Positions 17,269-27,576 of a DNA stretch of 32,212 nucleotides are shown here, in pieces. The notes below the pieces were generated by a model that was not told the origin of the DNA, searched no databases, and worked only from the letters and a program-made list of their open reading frames with translations. Each line of letters opens with the position of its first letter. The stretch's first letter is position 1. The DNA is from Sulfurimonas sp. Its GTDB lineage: Bacteria; Campylobacterota; Campylobacteria; Campylobacterales; Sulfurimonadaceae. The position numbers and the translations under genes are program-made. Location of the stretch: NCBI RefSeq assembly GCF_016744025.1, contig NZ_JADGFC010000015.1, positions 1 to 32,212 of the forward strand, given 5' to 3'.

Positions 17269-17682
17269 ATGAGTGTAACTAAAAGTGAAAACTCGGATGA
17301 GTGGTTATTCTCATCTGATGAATATATACTGAGTGAAACTGATGACAAAGGTTTTATCATCTACGCAAATGAACTTTTTTGTGAGCTAGCTGGTTATAAA
17401 CTCAGTGAGTTAATTGGTGAAGCCCATAATATAGTAAGACATCCAGATATGCCACGTATTGCCTTTAAAAGTCTTTGGGATGATGTACAAGCAAAAGGCT
17501 TTTGGACTGGAATTGTAAAAAATCTTAGAAAAGATGGTGGATACTACTGGGTACATGCAACTGCCTTGAGAAAAATTCATACTAACGGGAAAGTAACATA
17601 TCTTTCAGTTAGAAGAGTCCCTAGTAGAGCAGAAGTAGACTCTTGTATCTCTTTATATGCAGAGTTGAAAAGTAGCGAGTAA
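17269..17682 (+). CDS. Stand-alone PAS protein, CetB/Aer-type redox sensor
   Basis: 137 residues, almost all one PAS domain (about 15-120). The core ETDDKGFIIYANELFCELAGY leads to HNIVRHPDMPRIAFKSLW and then GFWTGIVKNLRKDGGYYWV, which closely follows the PAS domain of the aerotaxis receptor Aer, an FAD-binding redox sensor. There are no membrane or signalling helices, so it must work through a partner. In Campylobacter, CetB is such a PAS protein paired with a membrane receptor, CetA. No CetA-like gene lies nearby; the chemoreceptor at 5308 has a different (NIT) input. It starts 9 bases after aroC, with AAGG upstream of the ATG. Confidence 0.85.
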   Translation: MSVTKSENSDEWLFSSDEYILSETDDKGFIIYANELFCELAGYKLSELIGEAHNIVRHPDMPRIAFKSLWDDVQAKGFWTGIVKNLRKDGGYYWVHATALRKIHTNGKVTYLSVRRVPSRAEVDSCISLYAELKSSE

Positions 17683-18407: not shown

Positions 18408-19724
18408 ATGGATAATAAGAAATCTATAAATGATTTAGATATATCTGATAGAAGAAACTTTTTTAAGCGTACAGCAGCTCTTGGTGTAACTGCACTTGCT
18501 GGAACAAGTCTAATTGCGTCTGAAGATGATCATGCAATTATGCATCATCCTGAGTGGGGCCAAAAGTGGGGCGATCCTGTAACTAAAAATCGTTACGGAA
18601 TCCCATCTGCTTATGAGCATAACAACACAAGAAGAAATACTAAGCTTTTAGCTTCTGGTAACTATAGAGCTTCTATTGCAGTAACTCCGATTCATGAGTC
18701 AGAAGGTATCATCACTCCAAATGGTCTTTTCTTTTCCCGTTCTCATGGTGGAACTGCTCATATTGACCCAAAAGAGTATCGTTTAATGATTCATGGTTTA
18801 GTTGAAAAACCTATCGTATTAACACTTGATCAACTCAAACGTTATCCAAGTGTAACTCGTACACACTTTATCGAGTGTCCTGCAAATGGTGGACAAGAGT
18901 GGAGAGGCCCACAGTTTAACTCTTTACAGTTTGCTAAAGGTTTTATGGCATCTGCAGAGTGGACAGGTGTTTACATAAAAACTATTCTTGAAGATTTAGG
19001 CTTAAAGCCAGAAGCTCAGTGGATGCTAGCTGAGGGATCTGATAACTCAGAGATGGGTCGTTCTGTTCCAATAGATAAGATTCTTGATGATGCAATGATT
19101 GTTTGGGGTCAAAATGGAGAAGCTCTACGTCCTGAACAAGGTTATCCTGTAAGACTACTTCTCCCTGGTTGGGAAGGAAACTTATGTGTTAAATGGCTTA
19201 AGCGTTTAGATTTTGCTGCTGAACCATGGTACGCAAAAGAAGAAACTTCTAAATATACTGCACTTAAACCGAGTGGTAAAGCAATTCAGCATTTTTATGC
19301 GAATGAAGTAAACTCAACTGTAGTTTCTCCATCTCCTGAAAAACCATGGACTGACTTAGAAGATGGTGATATAGTTGAAATTGAAGGACTTGCTTGGTCT
19401 GGTATGGGAACTATAACTGGTATTGACTTATCTTTTGATGGTGGAAATAATTATGTCCAAGCGAAGATAAAAGGTTTATTATTGCCTAAGTCTTGGACTA
19501 GATGGAGCTACATGCATACATATAAAAAAGGTGAAGTACTTTTACTTACATCTCGTGCTATGGATGACGCAGGATATATTCAACCAACAATTGATGAAGA
19601 AGTTTCAATAATGGGTGTCGAGTCTGTTTACCATAGAAATGGTGTTGAAACTTGGGAAGTAACCCCAACAGGTGAAGTTAATCATGTTCAAGTTAGAACG
19701 CCAGGAGGGATCAAAGATGTTTAA
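18408..19724 (+). CDS. soxC: Sulfane dehydrogenase subunit SoxC (molybdopterin)
   Basis: The catalytic molybdenum subunit of Sox(CD)2, which oxidises the sulfane sulfur bound to SoxY in the periplasm. 438 residues. A twin-arginine signal DRRNFFKRTAALG (15-27) indicates export folded with its cofactor. The sulfite-oxidase fold follows, with the molybdenum-ligating Cys157 in HFIECPANGGQEW. Then come the conserved WTGVYIKTILEDLG region, LLPGWEGNLCVKWLKRL, and a C-terminal dimerisation domain (about 310-438) starting near TVVSPSPEKPW. The family name SoxC rather than SorA rests on the linked soxD and soxYZ. Its end overlaps the soxD start by 8 bases. Confidence 0.94.
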   Translation: MDNKKSINDLDISDRRNFFKRTAALGVTALAGTSLIASEDDHAIMHHPEWGQKWGDPVTKNRYGIPSAYEHNNTRRNTKLLASGNYRASIAVTPIHESEGIITPNGLFFSRSHGGTAHIDPKEYRLMIHGLVEKPIVLTLDQLKRYPSVTRTHFIECPANGGQEWRGPQFNSLQFAKGFMASAEWTGVYIKTILEDLGLKPEAQWMLAEGSDNSEMGRSVPIDKILDDAMIVWGQNGEALRPEQGYPVRLLLPGWEGNLCVKWLKRLDFAAEPWYAKEETSKYTALKPSGKAIQHFYANEVNSTVVSPSPEKPWTDLEDGDIVEIEGLAWSGMGTITGIDLSFDGGNNYVQAKIKGLLLPKSWTRWSYMHTYKKGEVLLLTSRAMDDAGYIQPTIDEEVSIMGVESVYHRNGVETWEVTPTGEVNHVQVRTPGGIKDV

Positions 19725-20886
19725 TACAAATTATAAATTAATTGCTACAGCTTCTGTCCTTAGTATAGCAACTTTATTTAGTGCAGGTTGTATGGATGAT
19801 GGTGCTACTCCAACTAAGACTACCAAAGCTAATACAGCTACAACAATTGCAAGTATAGATGGTGGTGTTAAATATCCTGTAATAGGTGATAAAACAGGTC
19901 CTTATTATGTAAATAATCAATCAAACATGATGAAGATAAATAATGGACGTGTGCCAACAGCAAATGAGTTAGTAGCTTGGGATAAAGATGTTATGCCAGA
20001 TGGAACAGGTTTACCTGAGGGTAGTGGCTCTGTTGAAGATGGTGAAGAGATTTATGAAGCTCAGTGTGTTATGTGTCATGGTGACTTTGGTTCAGGTGGT
20101 GGTGGATATCCATCTCTTTCAAAAGGTAATGCAGATGAGTTACAAAAGACATTAACAAACAACAGATGGAAAGATCCTGAAGCTGATGGTCCAACTCGTG
20201 TATTTGGTTCTTACTGGCCTGTTGCAAGTACAATGTGGTGGTATATTAGAGATGGTATGCCTCATACAAAGTCTAAAACTCTAAGTAATGATGAAGTCTA
20301 TGCTCTTACTGCGTATATGTTAAATATCAATGAGATTACAATTGATGGTGAAGAAGTTGATGATGAGTATGTTCTTAATCGCGAGAAATTCTTAAAAATC
20401 AAGATGCCAAATAGAGATGGATTTGAGCCAAATATAGATGGACCTAATGCTCTAAAAGATGTTCGTAAATACTATGAAAATCCTGCAAATTTTGGTGCTA
20501 AAAAAGTCAATCCAGCAACGCGTTGCATGAAAGACTGTCAAGAAAAGTCAGTAGTAGTAACTAGAGTTGAAAATGGTGGAATAAGTGAATTTTTACCACC
20601 AATGTCAGTGGTTAGAGATCTTCCTAAAAAAGAAGCTTCAGATATGGGCTTTAATGTTTTGAAAAACTATGAAGATAACTGTATGCCTTGTCATGTAGCA
20701 GATGGTATGGGTGCTCCAGTAACAGGCGATAAAGAAGGCTGGGCTGAAGTTCTTGCTAAAGGAATGAGTGGTGTTTATAAAAATGCTCTTGAAGGTATCA
20801 ATGGTATGCCTGCTAAAGGTGGTGCTAGTGTGAGTGATGATGAACTAAAATTATTAGTTGATTATATGATAGATAACAGTAAATAA
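19717..20886 (+). CDS. soxD: SoxD dihaem cytochrome c subunit of sulfane dehydrogenase
   Basis: Accepts electrons from SoxC in the periplasm. 389 residues from ATG 19717, chosen because AGGAGG lies 8 bases upstream and a signal sequence then begins directly; the open frame extends to 19672 but without these features. The hydrophobic leader ends in LFSAGC with Cys25 at a lipobox-like position, so it may be a lipoprotein. Two haem c sites: CVMCH (117-121) in the first cytochrome domain and CMPCH (322-326) in the second, with MPHT and MPAKG methionines as likely axial ligands. A further Cys pair, CMKDC (270-274), separates them. It overlaps soxC and precedes soxY by 15 bases. Confidence 0.92.
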   Translation: MFNTNYKLIATASVLSIATLFSAGCMDDGATPTKTTKANTATTIASIDGGVKYPVIGDKTGPYYVNNQSNMMKINNGRVPTANELVAWDKDVMPDGTGLPEGSGSVEDGEEIYEAQCVMCHGDFGSGGGGYPSLSKGNADELQKTLTNNRWKDPEADGPTRVFGSYWPVASTMWWYIRDGMPHTKSKTLSNDEVYALTAYMLNINEITIDGEEVDDEYVLNREKFLKIKMPNRDGFEPNIDGPNALKDVRKYYENPANFGAKKVNPATRCMKDCQEKSVVVTRVENGGISEFLPPMSVVRDLPKKEASDMGFNVLKNYEDNCMPCHVADGMGAPVTGDKEGWAEVLAKGMSGVYKNALEGINGMPAKGGASVSDDELKLLVDYMIDNSK

Positions 20887-20901
20887 AACAAAGGAAAGAT
20901 C

Positions 20902-21381
20902 ATGCAAAGAAGACAATTTTTAAGTTTAACAGTTGGTGCTTTAGCTTTGGCAGTAGCACCTGCAAGTGTAAGAGCAGAGGATTATAGAAAATTAAAACCC
21001 GCAGTATGGAGCGCGCACAAGATGGACATGGCTATAAAGGCTATGTACGGAACAACAGCTACTATAGAAGAGGGAGTAAAACTAAAGGCAGCAAATGTTG
21101 CTTTTGACTCTGGAAAAATGGCTACAGCTGCTAATGGTGGTGCTATTCCATTAGATTTTTCTACAAAGATACCTGCTAAAACTATAGCTGTATTTCAAGA
21201 TGCTAATCCTGAAGCTGCAGTTTGTGTATACACTGTAGGTAAATATGATATGACTACTTACTCGATTAAGATCAAGATGGGTAATCCTGGTAGTGTTAAA
21301 GTGATCGTTGAAGGTCAAGATGGCAAGCTTTACTCAGCTACACAAAAATTAAATGTTGCAAAAGGTGGTTGTGAAGGTTAA
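20902..21381 (+). CDS. soxY: SoxY sulfur-carrier protein
   Basis: The periplasmic carrier whose C-terminal cysteine holds the sulfur substrate during the Sox cycle. 159 residues. A twin-arginine-like leader MQRRQFLSLTVGALALAVAP ends near Ala25. The mature domain follows the SoxY Ig-like fold. The swinging-arm end is KGGCEG with Cys157, where most SoxY proteins have GGCGG; the substitution Gly to Glu next to the carrier cysteine is notable. It is followed by soxZ, its obligate partner. This is probably the SoxY of the CD-linked cluster, separate from a soxXYZAB cluster not seen here. ATG has AAGGAAAG upstream. Confidence 0.92.
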   Translation: MQRRQFLSLTVGALALAVAPASVRAEDYRKLKPAVWSAHKMDMAIKAMYGTTATIEEGVKLKAANVAFDSGKMATAANGGAIPLDFSTKIPAKTIAVFQDANPEAAVCVYTVGKYDMTTYSIKIKMGNPGSVKVIVEGQDGKLYSATQKLNVAKGGCEG

Positions 21382-21421
21382 TCCGACGCAACACAGAACA
21401 TAAAAACAATAAAGGAATATT

Positions 21422-21730
21422 ATGAAAGTAAAAGCAAAATTAAAAAAAGGCGTAGTTAAAGTAAAAGCTATGGCTAAGCACAACATGATTACATACAATC
21501 AAGCAGAGAAAAAAACTGGAAATAAAGATGATGCAAACTTTATTACTCACGTTAGTGCAACTTGTAACGGCGAGACAGTTTTAGATATGTCAACTAGTCA
21601 GTTCCTATCTAAAAATCCTATTTTAAAGTTTCAGTTTAAAGGTGAAATATTTAAAAAAGGCGATAAAGTACTTATGACTTGGGTAGACCGTAAAGGTAAA
21701 ACAGGAAAAGGTAAGGGTAAGATAAAATAA
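21422..21730 (+). CDS. soxZ: SoxZ, partner of SoxY
   Basis: 102 residues, the normal size. It forms the SoxYZ heterodimer. Recognised by the pattern KVKAMAKHNM near the start, then HVSATCNGETVLDMSTSQFLSKNP, FQFKG and GDKVLMTWVDRKGKT near the end. There is no signal peptide, as usual: it is carried out by the Tat pathway together with SoxY. Basic and lysine-rich. AAAGGAATATT precedes the ATG. A stem-loop overlaps the stop codon and may lower expression of the downstream genes. Confidence 0.93.
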   Translation: MKVKAKLKKGVVKVKAMAKHNMITYNQAEKKTGNKDDANFITHVSATCNGETVLDMSTSQFLSKNPILKFQFKGEIFKKGDKVLMTWVDRKGKTGKGKGKIK

Positions 21731-21745
21731 TCTTATCCTTTAATA
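21715..21745 (+). terminator. Stem-loop at the soxZ end (partial terminator or RNA-stability element)
   Basis: GGGTAAGAT (21715-21723) pairs with ATCTTATCC (21730-21738), one G-T pair, with a 6-base loop, followed by TTTAATAATTTA. The soxZ stop lies in the loop. It may separate high soxYZ expression from the accessory genes. Confidence 0.55.
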
Positions 21746-21764
21746 ATTTAGAGGTATATATATT

Positions 21765-22253
21765 TTGCTAAAGTTACTGATTAAAACTTTTCTTATTAGT
21801 ATTATCATCCAAGCAACACTTTTCTCAAGAGAAATCTATATTGATAAGATTGTTAAAAAAGAAGTTTCTTTGGGCAAGCATCTTTTTGTTTGGTTACATC
21901 AAACAGATTGTGGTTATTGTGAGAGTATGAAAGAATTTACTCTTGATGATGAAGATATAAAGGTTTTGATAAAGAAAAAGTTTGTCTTTGTTCATATAAA
22001 TATCAATGAAAAAGATAAGGTTATGTATAAAGATTTTGTTGGTAATGGTCGTGCCTTTGCTAAACATATAGGATATAACTTTTACCCAACATCACTTTTC
22101 TTTGATTCTAACAATAAACTTATATATGCCGTTCCTGGTTACAAGGATGAGAAAATATTTTTTTCAATCTTAAAATATATAGATTCCAAATCATATAAAA
22201 CAATGGAATTTGAAAGTTATGTAAATGAAGCTGATTTCAATGAAGAACTATAA
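21765..22253 (+). CDS. Periplasmic thioredoxin-like protein (SoxW-like)
   Basis: 162 residues starting at TTG 21765, with GAGG about 11 bases before. The N-terminal hydrophobic leader (LLIKTFLISIIIQATLF) suggests export. The thioredoxin fold has the redox pair Cys49/Cys52 in HQTDCGYCESMKEFT, and a cis-proline segment FYPTSLFF near residue 110. The motif and LHQTDCGYC start are typical of DUF255/thioredoxin_2-like proteins linked to sox genes (SoxW/SoxS group), which keep the SoxY cysteine reduced. That role is inferred from location. It overlaps no gene, with 8 bases to the MOSC gene. Confidence 0.82.
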   Translation: MLKLLIKTFLISIIIQATLFSREIYIDKIVKKEVSLGKHLFVWLHQTDCGYCESMKEFTLDDEDIKVLIKKKFVFVHININEKDKVMYKDFVGNGRAFAKHIGYNFYPTSLFFDSNNKLIYAVPGYKDEKIFFSILKYIDSKSYKTMEFESYVNEADFNEEL

Positions 22254-22261
22254 GGGTTAGT

Positions 22262-22702
22262 ATGACAGATAATACTCAAGGAATAGTGTTAGAACTATTT
22301 ATATCTATAAAGGGAAAAGATACTAGATCTCAACAAGAGAGTCTTATTGTTGATACCCAAGGTGTGAGAGAAGATAAGTTTTACGCAAAAAATACTCAAA
22401 GAGCTATATTAATTACTTCAGTAGATAGTTATAATTTAGCAAAAGAAAATGGTATAGAGACTCCATATAGTTCACTTGGGGAAAATATCTTACTTGATGT
22501 TAACCCTTATCATCTTAGCCCTGGTGACAGACTTGAAGTAGGAGAAACTCTCTTAGAAATAAGTCAAAACTGTACCATATGTAAGGGTTTATCAAAGGTA
22601 GATGCAAGCTTACCGACACTACTCCAAAATGATAGAGGAATTTTTGCTAAGGTCATAAATGGTGGGAGAATATCTAAAGGTGATAAAGTTATTTTTAAAT
22701 AG
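22262..22702 (+). CDS. MOSC-domain protein
   Basis: 146 residues, cytoplasmic, a single MOSC domain. Recognised by GVREDKFYAKNTQRAILITS (the G-x-x-x-D-x-x-y region), LGENILLDV, LSPGDRLEVGETLLEI and the conserved cysteine region CTICKGL at about 103-109. MOSC proteins carry or transfer sulfur for molybdenum-cofactor enzymes. Placement 2.5 kb behind soxC, a molybdoenzyme, suggests a part in maturing SoxC or in sulfur handling, but SoxC-type cofactors do not need the sulfido ligand added by MOSC sulfurases, so the role is open. Confidence 0.85.
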   Translation: MTDNTQGIVLELFISIKGKDTRSQQESLIVDTQGVREDKFYAKNTQRAILITSVDSYNLAKENGIETPYSSLGENILLDVNPYHLSPGDRLEVGETLLEISQNCTICKGLSKVDASLPTLLQNDRGIFAKVINGGRISKGDKVIFK

Positions 22703-22739
22703 TTTTATTATTTATACTTTAAAAAAAGAAGGAAGAAAA

Positions 22740-23681
22740 ATGAGAAAAATATATACTATGTTTGTTAGTGCTTTGTTTGTTATATCTTTAAGTGCAATCT
22801 CTGCATCTGCTATAGAACAAAATGTACAAGTATTTACAACAGATAATACAAATGGGAATATTACACCTAAAACTATTTCTGCAGCCTTTGCATCTTCTGG
22901 TTTATCAATCGGTGGAAACAACGATATGAATAAACCATTTAAACTTAGATTTACAAAACTACATTACAAAACATACAATCTTGCTATGTTTCGTAGTGAT
23001 GAATTAACTCTAAAACTAATAAAAAAATATCCTAAATTTGGTGTATTAACACCGCTTACTATGTCTATTTACTCAGATAAAGGAAGTATGAACATCTCTA
23101 CCTTAACTCTTGAAGGTATGGCTAGAACAACTGGTGTACCAGTAACTGATCCAGATTTGATAGCTTATGCTAAGTTAACAGACAAAGCGCTGCATCTAGC
23201 ATTACCAAAGGGTAAGTATAAGAAACTAAACCATAATGTTGAGAGCAAAACAGATAACTATGCTCAAGCTTTTAGTGTTGAGCTTGAAGAAGGTACTGAT
23301 TTAGAAGAGTGGAGAGAAGATTTTGAGAATGAGTTTGAAGGAGAGATGGAGCCTATTGGTTTTTTAATGCCTAATTATACCAATCTAGTTGAAGAGATAT
23401 TTGAAGCTGCAAAATATGAAGAATATGACTTTTTTATTACCTACTCTGTTTGTAAATTTGATGTAATCTACCCAGTGTCAAAACTGCATCCTGAAGCTGG
23501 TGCATATGCTCCTTGTACAATGTATGTGTATAAGAAAAAAGGCGATAGCAAAGTTTATATAGGATACTTAGGTGTAAATAATTGGATTAAAATACTTGAT
23601 ATCAAGGATGAAAAAGCAGTTGCGGCACTTAACGAAGCTCAGGGGATGATTAATAATATCCTTACAGAACTTACTGAGTAA
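22740..23681 (+). CDS. Exported double-DUF302 protein (first paralogue)
   Basis: 313 residues from ATG 22740, chosen because AAGGAAG precedes it and a signal peptide begins at once (cleavage near SASA-IEQ, residue 24); the open frame runs back to 22659 over the MOSC end. Two DUF302-like halves follow. The first, about 40-125, has YPKFGVLTPLTMSIY but no cysteine. The second, about 185-290, has Cys238 in YSVCKF and Cys259 in YAPCTMYVY, matching the two conserved cysteines of DUF302 (CNP and LPC positions). Function unknown; DUF302 genes occur near sulfur-oxidation genes. Its position in the sox operon and the cysteine pair suggest sulfur or redox handling in the periplasm. Confidence 0.8.
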   Translation: MRKIYTMFVSALFVISLSAISASAIEQNVQVFTTDNTNGNITPKTISAAFASSGLSIGGNNDMNKPFKLRFTKLHYKTYNLAMFRSDELTLKLIKKYPKFGVLTPLTMSIYSDKGSMNISTLTLEGMARTTGVPVTDPDLIAYAKLTDKALHLALPKGKYKKLNHNVESKTDNYAQAFSVELEEGTDLEEWREDFENEFEGEMEPIGFLMPNYTNLVEEIFEAAKYEEYDFFITYSVCKFDVIYPVSKLHPEAGAYAPCTMYVYKKKGDSKVYIGYLGVNNWIKILDIKDEKAVAALNEAQGMINNILTELTE

Positions 23682-23686
23682 TAGAG

Positions 23687-24709
23687 ATGAAAACTAGCAC
23701 AATAAAAAAGTTAGTACTAACACTCTTATTTAGTGCTAGCTTTTTCTCTCTTAACGCAAATGACAAGTTTGTAGCTAGTAACAATCAAAATCTTGCAGTT
23801 GAGTATACTTTAGAAAATTCTTCAAAAGAGATAGATAAAGCTTTTTTCCAGTTTACAAAAGATATAGAAAAAATAGGCTTTTTTGTAAATGATGCTCATC
23901 ATAATGTACAAAATGTATATGAAAAAAAAGTTGGAGAAACTTCTCTATCTCAACTCTCTTTTTCTTCTCTTATAAATGATGACAAAGCAAGAAAACTATT
24001 TAACATAGACCCAAGACTTGGTGGATTTACTCCATTTAACTTGGTTATATACAGAAGAAAATCTGATAACAAGAGTGTTATAACTCATATAACACCAGAA
24101 GCAGCTCTAGATATTCTACAAATCAGAGATAATCATTTAAGAGAAAAATTCATAGAAATGTTTAAGCCAATGGATGAACTCATTGAAAAGACTTTTAATG
24201 TTAAAAAAACATATACAAAAATTCATGGTTTTGCGAAACAGAGCATGATGAACTATGAAATAACATTTGAAAAACCAGAAGATATAGATGATTTTTTTGA
24301 TGAATTTCAAGAAGAATTAGAAGCTCCTTTTGAGAAAAAAGGTTATATTATTGCTGGCTTTTATGATATGAAATATAGCTTTAACACAGAAAAAGATGAA
24401 TTGCCAAACTTCGAGAAATATATTGTATGGTCTCTGTGTCATATATCTTTTTCATATACAATTTTTGATGGTAAAGAACCTCTTCCTCAAGCTGCAATAT
24501 TTGCTCCTTGTTCTATGTACGCTTATATTAAGAAGGGTGAAAATAAGATTGTAATCGGAATGCCAACACTTAGTGCATGGGCGGCATCACTCAATATTAC
24601 GCAAAAAGACAAGCTACAAAAGATTAAACAACTAGACAGTGAAATTACTAATATCCTCATTGAACTTGGTGGAGTTAAAGTAGAAAATACTAACCCACTA
24701 CAAAAATAG
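23687..24709 (+). CDS. Exported double-DUF302 protein (second paralogue)
   Basis: 340 residues with a signal peptide (LVLTLLFSASFFSLNAND, cleavage near residue 24). It has the same architecture as its neighbour, 5 bases upstream: a cysteine-free first half (IDPRLGGFTPFNLVIYRR at about 107-124) and a second half with Cys251 (WSLCHISF) and Cys275 (FAPCSMYAYIKK). The remainder is strongly diverged, so the duplication is old. Both end in similar helices (ITNILIEL here, INNILTEL in the first). They may form a heterodimer. It ends the operon: the next gene has its own promoter. Confidence 0.8.
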   Translation: MKTSTIKKLVLTLLFSASFFSLNANDKFVASNNQNLAVEYTLENSSKEIDKAFFQFTKDIEKIGFFVNDAHHNVQNVYEKKVGETSLSQLSFSSLINDDKARKLFNIDPRLGGFTPFNLVIYRRKSDNKSVITHITPEAALDILQIRDNHLREKFIEMFKPMDELIEKTFNVKKTYTKIHGFAKQSMMNYEITFEKPEDIDDFFDEFQEELEAPFEKKGYIIAGFYDMKYSFNTEKDELPNFEKYIVWSLCHISFSYTIFDGKEPLPQAAIFAPCSMYAYIKKGENKIVIGMPTLSAWAASLNITQKDKLQKIKQLDSEITNILIELGGVKVENTNPLQK

Positions 24710-24789: not shown

Positions 24790-27576
24790 ATGAAGTTAGT
24801 AAATTATAAATTTGAAAATATAACAGAATTAGATATTTTTATAGATGAAAATATACTAAAAAAATCAAATTTACTAATTCAGCTTTTAAGTGGTGAGTCA
24901 GACACCTCAAAGTTACATCCTATTTTAGAACTTTTATCCAATAAGCTTCCAGATGCTAAGATAATTGGTGCCTCAACTGCAGGTGAGATTGTCAATGGAA
25001 AAGTTCAAAGAAAAACAATTCAAATATCTTTTTCTATTTTTGAAAATACTACTATAAATACATATTTTTATGAAGAATCAACTTTTGAGACAGGAATAAA
25101 AGCTGCGCAAGAGTGTATAAAGTATGATACAAAAGCTATGATAGCTTTAAGTGAAGCTTTTAGAGGTGATTCAGAATCTTTCTTAAATGGTTTTACTTCA
25201 ATCAATAGTGCTGTTACAGTTGCCGGTGGTATAGCCGGGGATAACTTTGAGTTTAAAAAAACCTTTATTATAAAAGATAAAAAGATACATTTTGATGGAA
25301 TAGTCTTAGCAACACTGAGTAGTGATAGTTTATATGTCTCAAGTGAATATTCTCTTGAATGGACTACTATCGGTAAAGAGATGCTAATCACTAAATCTGA
25401 TAAAAATATTATATATGAAATAGACAATATACCTATTAAAGATATGTTCTCACATTATCTTGGTGAAGAAATTATCTCAAATCTACCAGCTAGTGCAATA
25501 GAATTTCCTTTAGTTCGAGTTGAAAATGGTGTGATGATAGCAAGATCAATGCATAGTGTAACAGAGGATGATGGTTTTGTTTTTGCAGGTCACTTTCATA
25601 ATGGAGATAAAGTACGCTTTGCTATTGGTAATATAGAAGAGATACTAAACAATGCCTCCAAAATACCAAGAAAAATAGCTCTAAGGCCAGTAGAAGCGAC
25701 TTATATATACTCATGTTCTGTTAGAGATTTGTTTTTAAAAGAACAAATAAATAATGAATTTGCTCTTATTGAAGCTGTAGCTCCAACAGTTGGTATGTTT
25801 ACATATGGGGAGTTTTTTCACTCTAATGGAGATAATAAAGTTTTAAATATAACAACTACAACCTTATCTATCTCTGAGACAAATAATATATCTGAACATG
25901 AAGATATTGCTAACCATGAACATAAGCAAACCATGCTTAAATCTCTTACGCATCTAGTAAATATATCTCAAGATGAGCTTGATGATAATATGAATATACT
26001 CAATCAATATAGAACAATACTTGATGAGAGTTCTATCGTTTCAAAAACTGATACAAACGGGGTTATTACTTATGTAAATGATGCCTTTACTAGAATATCA
26101 GGTTATACAAGAGAAGAGTTAATGGGCAAGAGTCATAATATTGTAAAACATGATGAGAATGATCCTAGTATATTTAAAAATATGTGGGATACAATCAAAA
26201 ATAAGAAAATATGGCGAAGTACTATAAAAAACATTTCTAAAGATGGAATTTCGTATTATGTTAAATCGGTAATTATGCCTATTCTAAATGATGATGGAGA
26301 AATTGTCGAGTATATCGCTACAAGAACAGATGTTACTGAGCTGATAGAAAAAGATAAAATCATTAAAAAGCAATTCACAGATGAATTGACAGGCTTAAAA
26401 AATAGAGAGGCACTGCTTGGGGCTTTAGCTATAACGAGTAAAAAAAGTACTCTAGCTCTTATTAATATTGATAGGTTCTCAGATATAAATGATTATTTTG
26501 GTTATGAAATTGGAGATAAGGTTCTTCAAGAAGTTGCTCAAATCATTAAAGATATTATCATCAACGAAGCACAAGCTTATAGACTAAGTAGTGATGAGTT
26601 TGCAGTTTTATACTCAAATAAAGAGATTAGTGATGATGTTAAAATTGACATTAGGTCTTTAATAGACCACATAGAAAATACTAATTTAAAGATGGATGGA
26701 TATAAGATTTCCCCAAGTATATCTTGTGGTATCTCATCAGGTGAGAAAGAAGATATATACAAACTTTCTCATATAGCTATTAAAGAGAGTAAAGTAAGTA
26801 ATAAAAAAATAGTTATTTACAATGAGAGCAAATCTTTACAAAATCAGACTAAGAATAATATAGAAGTTATAGACGCCATTAAGTTAGGAATTACAGAAGA
26901 TAGATTTTTACCATTCTTTCAAGGTATTGTAGATAATAAAACTAAGAAAATTGTAAAGTATGAAGCACTAATAAGGCTAAAAAGAGAAGATGGCTCTATT
27001 GTATCTCCATATTTCTTTTTAGAACATTCAAAAAAAGCTAAACTTTATTACAAGCTGACCAAGACAATGATTGAAAAAACTTTTAAAAAGTTTTCAAATC
27101 TTGATTATGAGTTTTCAATAAATCTATGTTTACAGGATATTTTGTCAAACAAAACTAAAGAAGTTTTGATAAACAATTTAAAAAAGTATAATTGTGGAAA
27201 TCGAGTAGTTCTTGAGATAGTGGAATCAGAAGGTATTGAGAATTTTAATGAGTTGGATTTATTTATAAAAGAAGTTAAAAAATATGGTTGTAAAATAGCT
27301 ATAGATGATTTTGGCACAGGTTACTCAAACTTTAGTTATTTGACAAAGTTAAATATTGATTATATAAAAATAGATGGATCATTAATAGAAAATATAGATA
27401 AAGATATAACTCAAAGAATTACAGTTGAGAGTATCTTACTCTATGCAAAAAATATGAATATTAAAACGATAGCTGAATTTGTTGAGACGCAGAGTGTTTA
27501 TGATACGTTAGTTGAGCTAGGTGTAGACTTCTCACAAGGTTATCTGTTCTCAAAACCTTGTGAAGAGATTGAATAA
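24790..27576 (+). CDS. FIST-PAS-GGDEF-EAL signalling protein (likely c-di-GMP phosphodiesterase)
   Basis: 928 residues, cytoplasmic. FIST N (about 25-220) and FIST C (about 220-365), a small-ligand sensor pair, are recognised by IIGASTAGEIVNG, VAGGIAGDNF and the GMFTYGEFFHSNG end. An Aer-type PAS follows (about 410-515, SHNIVKHDENDPSIFKNMW). The GGDEF domain (about 525-680) has SSDEF at 600-604 in place of GGDEF, so cyclase activity is unlikely, though GTP sensing remains possible. The EAL domain (about 690-925) has Glu725-Ala-Leu, the DDFGTGYS motif at 839-846, KIDGS (about 860-864), and Glu896 in TIAEFVE, so it is probably active in c-di-GMP breakdown. The signal for FIST is unknown (amino acids have been proposed for the family). 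Confidence 0.9.
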   Translation: MKLVNYKFENITELDIFIDENILKKSNLLIQLLSGESDTSKLHPILELLSNKLPDAKIIGASTAGEIVNGKVQRKTIQISFSIFENTTINTYFYEESTFETGIKAAQECIKYDTKAMIALSEAFRGDSESFLNGFTSINSAVTVAGGIAGDNFEFKKTFIIKDKKIHFDGIVLATLSSDSLYVSSEYSLEWTTIGKEMLITKSDKNIIYEIDNIPIKDMFSHYLGEEIISNLPASAIEFPLVRVENGVMIARSMHSVTEDDGFVFAGHFHNGDKVRFAIGNIEEILNNASKIPRKIALRPVEATYIYSCSVRDLFLKEQINNEFALIEAVAPTVGMFTYGEFFHSNGDNKVLNITTTTLSISETNNISEHEDIANHEHKQTMLKSLTHLVNISQDELDDNMNILNQYRTILDESSIVSKTDTNGVITYVNDAFTRISGYTREELMGKSHNIVKHDENDPSIFKNMWDTIKNKKIWRSTIKNISKDGISYYVKSVIMPILNDDGEIVEYIATRTDVTELIEKDKIIKKQFTDELTGLKNREALLGALAITSKKSTLALINIDRFSDINDYFGYEIGDKVLQEVAQIIKDIIINEAQAYRLSSDEFAVLYSNKEISDDVKIDIRSLIDHIENTNLKMDGYKISPSISCGISSGEKEDIYKLSHIAIKESKVSNKKIVIYNESKSLQNQTKNNIEVIDAIKLGITEDRFLPFFQGIVDNKTKKIVKYEALIRLKREDGSIVSPYFFLEHSKKAKLYYKLTKTMIEKTFKKFSNLDYEFSINLCLQDILSNKTKEVLINNLKKYNCGNRVVLEIVESEGIENFNELDLFIKEVKKYGCKIAIDDFGTGYSNFSYLTKLNIDYIKIDGSLIENIDKDITQRITVESILLYAKNMNIKTIAEFVETQSVYDTLVELGVDFSQGYLFSKPCEEIE

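Follow-up and report, generated by a model that had tools for sequence, protein, structure and literature searches.

Sulfurimonas and its relatives are major sulfur oxidizers at vents and redoxclines. According to two reports (PMC7952632; PMC10045233, citing strain CVO), some of these with soxCDYZ but without soxXAB still oxidize thiosulfate or elemental sulfur (S0). A concrete and testable candidate for the loading of SoxYZ in such soxCDYZ-only species is offered by the window analyzed here, a stretch of 32,212 nucleotides from a Sulfurimonas sp. genome, in which two paralogous double-DUF302 proteins, referred to as A and B, are encoded behind soxCDYZ. In the best reading of the evidence, to which we give a probability of roughly 0.45, A would use a cysteine pair to deliver sulfane sulfur to SoxYZ or remove it from there; the association of A with Sox is strong.

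The operon spans positions 18408–24709 in the order soxC, soxD, soxY, soxZ, thioredoxin, MOSC, A, and B, and no intergenic gap exceeds about 40 bases (Table 1). The six neighbors of A and B named in the initial annotation were all confirmed by Pfam or NCBIfam matches. The start of A is the ATG at 22740, a longer frame opening at 22659 within the MOSC gene, and scans for promoters and terminators gave no signal above chance. In the genome as a whole, a single SoxY was found, with no match to SoxB and none to SoxH, the same SoxH query having recognized SoxH in the loci of relatives. The genome is a draft of 252 contigs listed as 100% complete; if complete without SoxB and SoxH, it leaves the thioredoxin, A, and B as the sole further products of the operon that are predicted to be exported and could load or clear SoxYZ. 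The operon is bordered by a small PAS protein (17269–17682) on one side and a FIST-PAS-GGDEF-EAL protein (24790–27576) on the other; a comparable 138-aa PAS protein lies near A or B in three other loci (L063, L093, and L122).

Table 1. Genes of the sox operon, with positions in the window and basis of assignment
Feature	Position	Strand	Basis
soxC, molybdenum sulfane dehydrogenase subunit	18408..19724	+	TIGR04555, 565 bits (cut-off 420)
soxD-like diheme cytochrome c	19714..20886	+	Two cytochrome c stretches; place after soxC
soxY, variant swinging arm ending GGCEG	20902..21381	+	Pfam SoxY; below TIGR04488 cut-off; C-terminus read
soxZ	21422..21730	+	TIGR04490, above cut-off
SoxW-like thioredoxin, CGYC, predicted exported	21765..22253	+	Pfam Thioredoxin_2
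MOSC protein, no visible signal peptide	22262..22702	+	Pfam MOSC; best NCBIfam match MoaC/MOSC fusion
A, double-DUF302, predicted exported, 313 aa, C238/C259 in domain 2	22740..23681	+	Pfam DUF302, model, alignment
B, double-DUF302 paralogue, predicted exported, 340 aa, C251/C275 in domain 2; optional partner	23687..24709	+	Pfam DUF302, model, alignment

Both proteins passed the family score of DUF302 (PF03625; cut-off 23 bits), A with 36.5 bits in two stretches and B with 24.6 bits, and the N- and C-terminal halves of each are homologous to one another (hhalign E-values of 1.7e-12 for A and 5.9e-6 for B). AlphaFold models built from alignments of the window proteins and their GTDB relatives were confident (pLDDT of 90.7 for A and 90.0 for B), with the strand and helix order occurring twice over in each, and the top PDB matches of both models in Foldseek were 1q9u, 7tj1, and 1j3m (probability 1.00; TM-score up to 0.80 on the target); a PDB sequence search with A alone gave no match. 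PDB entry 7tj1 is entitled CrcB fluoride transporter, yet its fold matches DUF302, so that the title looks mismatched. As read by eye, a hydrophobic leader ends ASA/IE in A and LNA/ND in B, and a cysteine stands at the lipobox position in about a third of A-type sequences; both proteins are thus predicted, from leaders and lipoboxes so judged, to be exported to the periplasm.

The pairs listed in Table 1 are the sole cysteines of A and B, leaving the first half of each without any, as the initial annotation stated. Moreover, the conservation in orthologues on which that annotation had made its proposal depend was found to be complete, the pair being invariant in 60 of 60 A-type and 33 of 33 B-type sequences (93 in all); beyond it, the lipobox cysteine is the only conserved one. 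This ACNP...LPC-type pair of the second domain is not universal in DUF302: single-domain members occur with and without it, and the DUF302 fold evidently does not require the cysteines, since many of these proteins lack them. In profile alignments, the pair of A coincides with both 1q9u cysteines, and the N-terminal half of A aligns to 1j3m across the cysteine region of that protein; the second half therefore retained the family cysteines, and the first half most likely lost them.

A GTDB-wide scan for relatives returned 179 loci, the best 80 of which all belong to Campylobacterota where named (Sulfurimonas, Sulfuricurvum, Sulfurovum, Arcobacter, Sulfurospirillum, and unplaced members), with one record reading just "bacterium". 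In a class survey of 397 Campylobacteria genomes searched for A-type proteins, soxC, and soxB, A-type proteins were found in 61 genomes, 59 of which have soxB or soxC (Fisher p = 2.7e-36, a value too small because the genomes are related), and for 72 of 92 A genes soxB or soxC is no more than 10 kb away, compared with about 2% expected by chance. More specifically, A follows the split type of Sox, in which soxXYZAB and soxCDYZ stand apart, rather than the unified, single-operon type; the SoxB proteins of the two types are, respectively, 64–97% and 39–43% identical to a Sulfurimonas protein (locus L068). All 47 genomes with split-type SoxB have A, versus 2 of 44 with the unified type (Fisher p = 6e-24, again too small for related genomes), and both of the latter copies are unlinked to sox. 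The same division holds within families f6 (A in seven of seven split versus none of seven unified genomes), f9, and f1, and within genus g16, where G140 and G388 are split and have A, whereas G327 is unified and lacks it. Four split genomes have no A within 10 kb of soxB; in three of them, A1 lies beside DsrE and thioredoxin on another contig (L206, L208, and L210), so that contig breaks explain the missing linkage. Sox systems of the unified type function in the absence of A, and among 21 genomes that have soxC and lack soxB, 11 are without A; Sox chemistry in itself thus does not depend on A. The pair had been proposed as possible new Sox components unless found mostly in genomes without sox genes, which is not the case for A, and, given also the invariant cysteines, that proposal stands for A: we hold with high confidence that it belongs functionally with the split Sox system of Campylobacterota.

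Two places of A at sox loci are fixed. The first, soxXYZAB–OprD–metallo-hydrolase (MBL)–thioredoxin–DsrE–A1, recurs in several families, and the second, soxCDYZ–(soxH)–(thioredoxin)–MOSC–A–(B or fccB), is found in other families, the copies from the two places forming separate clades with two label changes on the tree. Two genomes with neither soxB nor soxC retain fccB–soxY–soxZ–Rieske–...–A1 (loci L199 and L200), making SoxYZ the constant companion of A; indeed, SoxYZ is the sole sox component common to all sox-linked A loci. In type-1 soxCDYZ loci with A, SoxY ends in GGCEG and soxH is, as a rule, missing, while SoxY of type-2 and unified loci ends in the usual GGCGG; the GGCEG form of type-1 loci occurs nearly always with A and without soxH. 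Separately, a metallo-hydrolase–thioredoxin–thioredoxin–DsrE–A block downstream of soxB was seen three times in tandem at a spacing of exactly 3883 bases (L226 5240–17000, in G244). A third DUF302 protein—single-domain, 196 aa, with HYC...FMPC, and apparently membrane-anchored—follows fccB in type-2 soxCDYZH-A loci (L144 12309–12899, L157 12330–12920, L130 7496–8086, and L062 2912–3502).

Under the preferred reading, A would be a dedicated periplasmic accessory protein of the Campylobacterota split Sox system, in which the first DUF302 domain, its family cysteines lost, would serve structure or partner binding and the second, with cysteines kept, would be reactive. The latter would accept sulfane sulfur, as persulfide or polysulfide, and transfer it onto or off the swinging-arm cysteine of SoxYZ, the adjoining thioredoxin possibly acting as reductant for A. 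At soxXYZAB loci, paralogue A1 would take the sulfane sulfur remaining on SoxYZ after SoxB has acted, whereas A at soxCDYZ loci would charge SoxY with sulfane sulfur for use by SoxCD. In the genome of the window, with no SoxB or SoxH match, A, helped by B, may load or unload sulfur deriving from S0, polysulfide, or thiosulfate. The co-inheritance of A with Sox fits any accessory role, not sulfur transfer alone.

The linkage to a MOSC gene, which had been taken to point to sulfur transfer, is weak in that respect: MOSC stays next to soxC where DUF302 is absent (soxCDYZH loci without A, L080–L082), and it is missing from the soxXYZAB loci that carry A. Since MOSC follows soxC even without DUF302, it probably serves the molybdenum cofactor of SoxC, a simpler explanation for which a role as sulfur-transfer partner was set aside. 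DsrE and thioredoxin as A-specific partners are likewise unsupported, since both occur, of the same kind, in unified sox loci without A. In a less favored explanation, A carries no sulfur itself and is instead a thiol-redox or assembly factor that, with the SoxW-like thioredoxin, keeps the SoxY arm cysteine reduced or delivers SoxYZ to its partner. A periplasmic SoxW-type reductant is established for Sox, a thioredoxin of this type adjoins A in many loci, and the two conserved cysteines could form a disulfide; however, besides the presence of the same thioredoxin and DsrE in unified loci without A, no recognizable thioredoxin adjoins A in about half of the A-carrying type-1 soxCDYZ loci. We consider this explanation unlikely, although it is the strongest of the alternatives.

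The part played by B is less firmly tied to Sox. Of 63 soxC-linked loci with enough space behind A, 23 have B there, and B follows A in 4 of the 61 A-bearing genomes of the class survey. Its paralogues (B1) lie mostly away from sox, the sox link of B being confined to places where B follows A, and of the 38 genomes carrying a B-like gene, 12 have neither soxB nor soxC. An obligate A–B heterodimer, of the kind that the tandem placement had suggested, was therefore rejected as unlikely, A occurring without B. Since B is optional and B1 paralogues go with FadL-type outer-membrane proteins, that B takes part in the same step as A is put forward tentatively, at somewhat less than even odds. The unit that B1 forms with a FadL-type protein and B280 (an exported protein or lipoprotein of about 280 aa with no Pfam family) was seen upstream of soxC in L092 (1787–3627), L093, L096, L100, and L108–L110, and also in L122 (12878–17810); in Sulfuricurvum, it lies shortly upstream of soxCDYZ. 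As channels of the FadL type carry hydrophobic molecules, a role of the unit in S8 uptake is possible. B280 was considered as a hidden DUF302 protein and found no support in hhalign. Frames of 687 to about 1060 aa with at least two B-type units also occur (L215 6317–8380; G407:C35:28372–30153; G285:C1:583710–585461).

The B1–FadL association would also suit an explanation in which A binds or buffers polysulfide or S0 for storage, protection, or sensing, with no direct contact with SoxYZ; the lipoprotein form of about a third of A and an orphan A clade without sox neighbors are consistent with it as well. The latter, an eight-gene clade (L192–L198 and L203), is about 48% identical to A. Against this explanation, the inheritance of a distinct A clade with each sox locus argues for a specific partner, and SoxYZ alone is common to all linked loci; we therefore rate buffering as improbable. 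Still less probable is that A binds metal or heme through its cysteine pair and matures Sox enzymes (manganese for SoxB, heme for SoxD or SoxXA). A conserved cysteine pair in a predicted exported protein and the adjacency of the A gene to metalloenzyme genes would fit, but A follows soxB loci, soxCD loci, and fccB-soxYZ loci with neither, and unified systems have the same enzymes without A. Finally, a mere passenger effect of one old operon, with A having no Sox role, is very improbable: synteny is inherited in blocks and the related genomes make the counts non-independent, but the association is seen at two distinct sox loci and in several families, and A follows Sox type within families and within a genus, as described above.

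Returning to sulfur transfer by A, a stronger version would have A-type proteins as the missing loading or unloading factor of SoxYZ that lets soxCDYZ run without SoxXAB and, in the present genome, without SoxH. This version is speculative and, on balance, rather doubtful; if true, A-type proteins would form a new class of sulfur-transfer proteins in the periplasm, and DUF302 would gain its first function. In Sulfurovum indicum, soxCDYZ is the branch raised on S0, while thiosulfate raises dsrE, soxW, and soxH1 of the other locus (PMC10045233).

Single-domain DUF302 genes of no known function in other sox clusters were already published, with a candidate role in trithionate oxidation proposed by the earlier authors. 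Searches of the open-access literature turned up no account of proteins with two DUF302 domains and none of DUF302 at sox loci of Campylobacterota; the double form with predicted export, its tie to split Sox, its occurrence at both kinds of sox locus, and the restriction of the cysteines to one half thus appear to be undescribed.

With respect to known systems, A and B share the fold of the DUF302 crystal structures 1q9u, 1j3m, and 7tj1, all of unknown function, and 1q9u has two cysteines at the same positions as the pair; unlike these single domains of about 130 aa, A and B consist of two fused domains and a leader, with cysteines in the second domain only. The DsrE/TusD-type sulfur transferases and SoxW thioredoxin that adjoin A at soxXYZAB loci are comparable in their cysteine-based handling of sulfur or thiols, but are of different families, neither of which A matched. 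SoxH, of metallo-beta-lactamase fold, stands after soxZ in the other soxCDYZ type, in a place similar to that of A, but its family is unrelated; soxH is missing from nearly all type-1 loci with A, and both are present in some type-2 loci. In Acidithiobacillia, a DUF302 gene lies between soxA and soxB (PMC5037610), and in Sulfitobacter one lies near soxF (PMC11034169); as in Campylobacterota, these proteins are encoded inside the sox cluster. The Thermithiobacillus protein, however, is reported to be 191 aa in length, in clusters without soxCD, whereas the Campylobacterota form is double and is found at both soxXYZAB and soxCDYZ loci.
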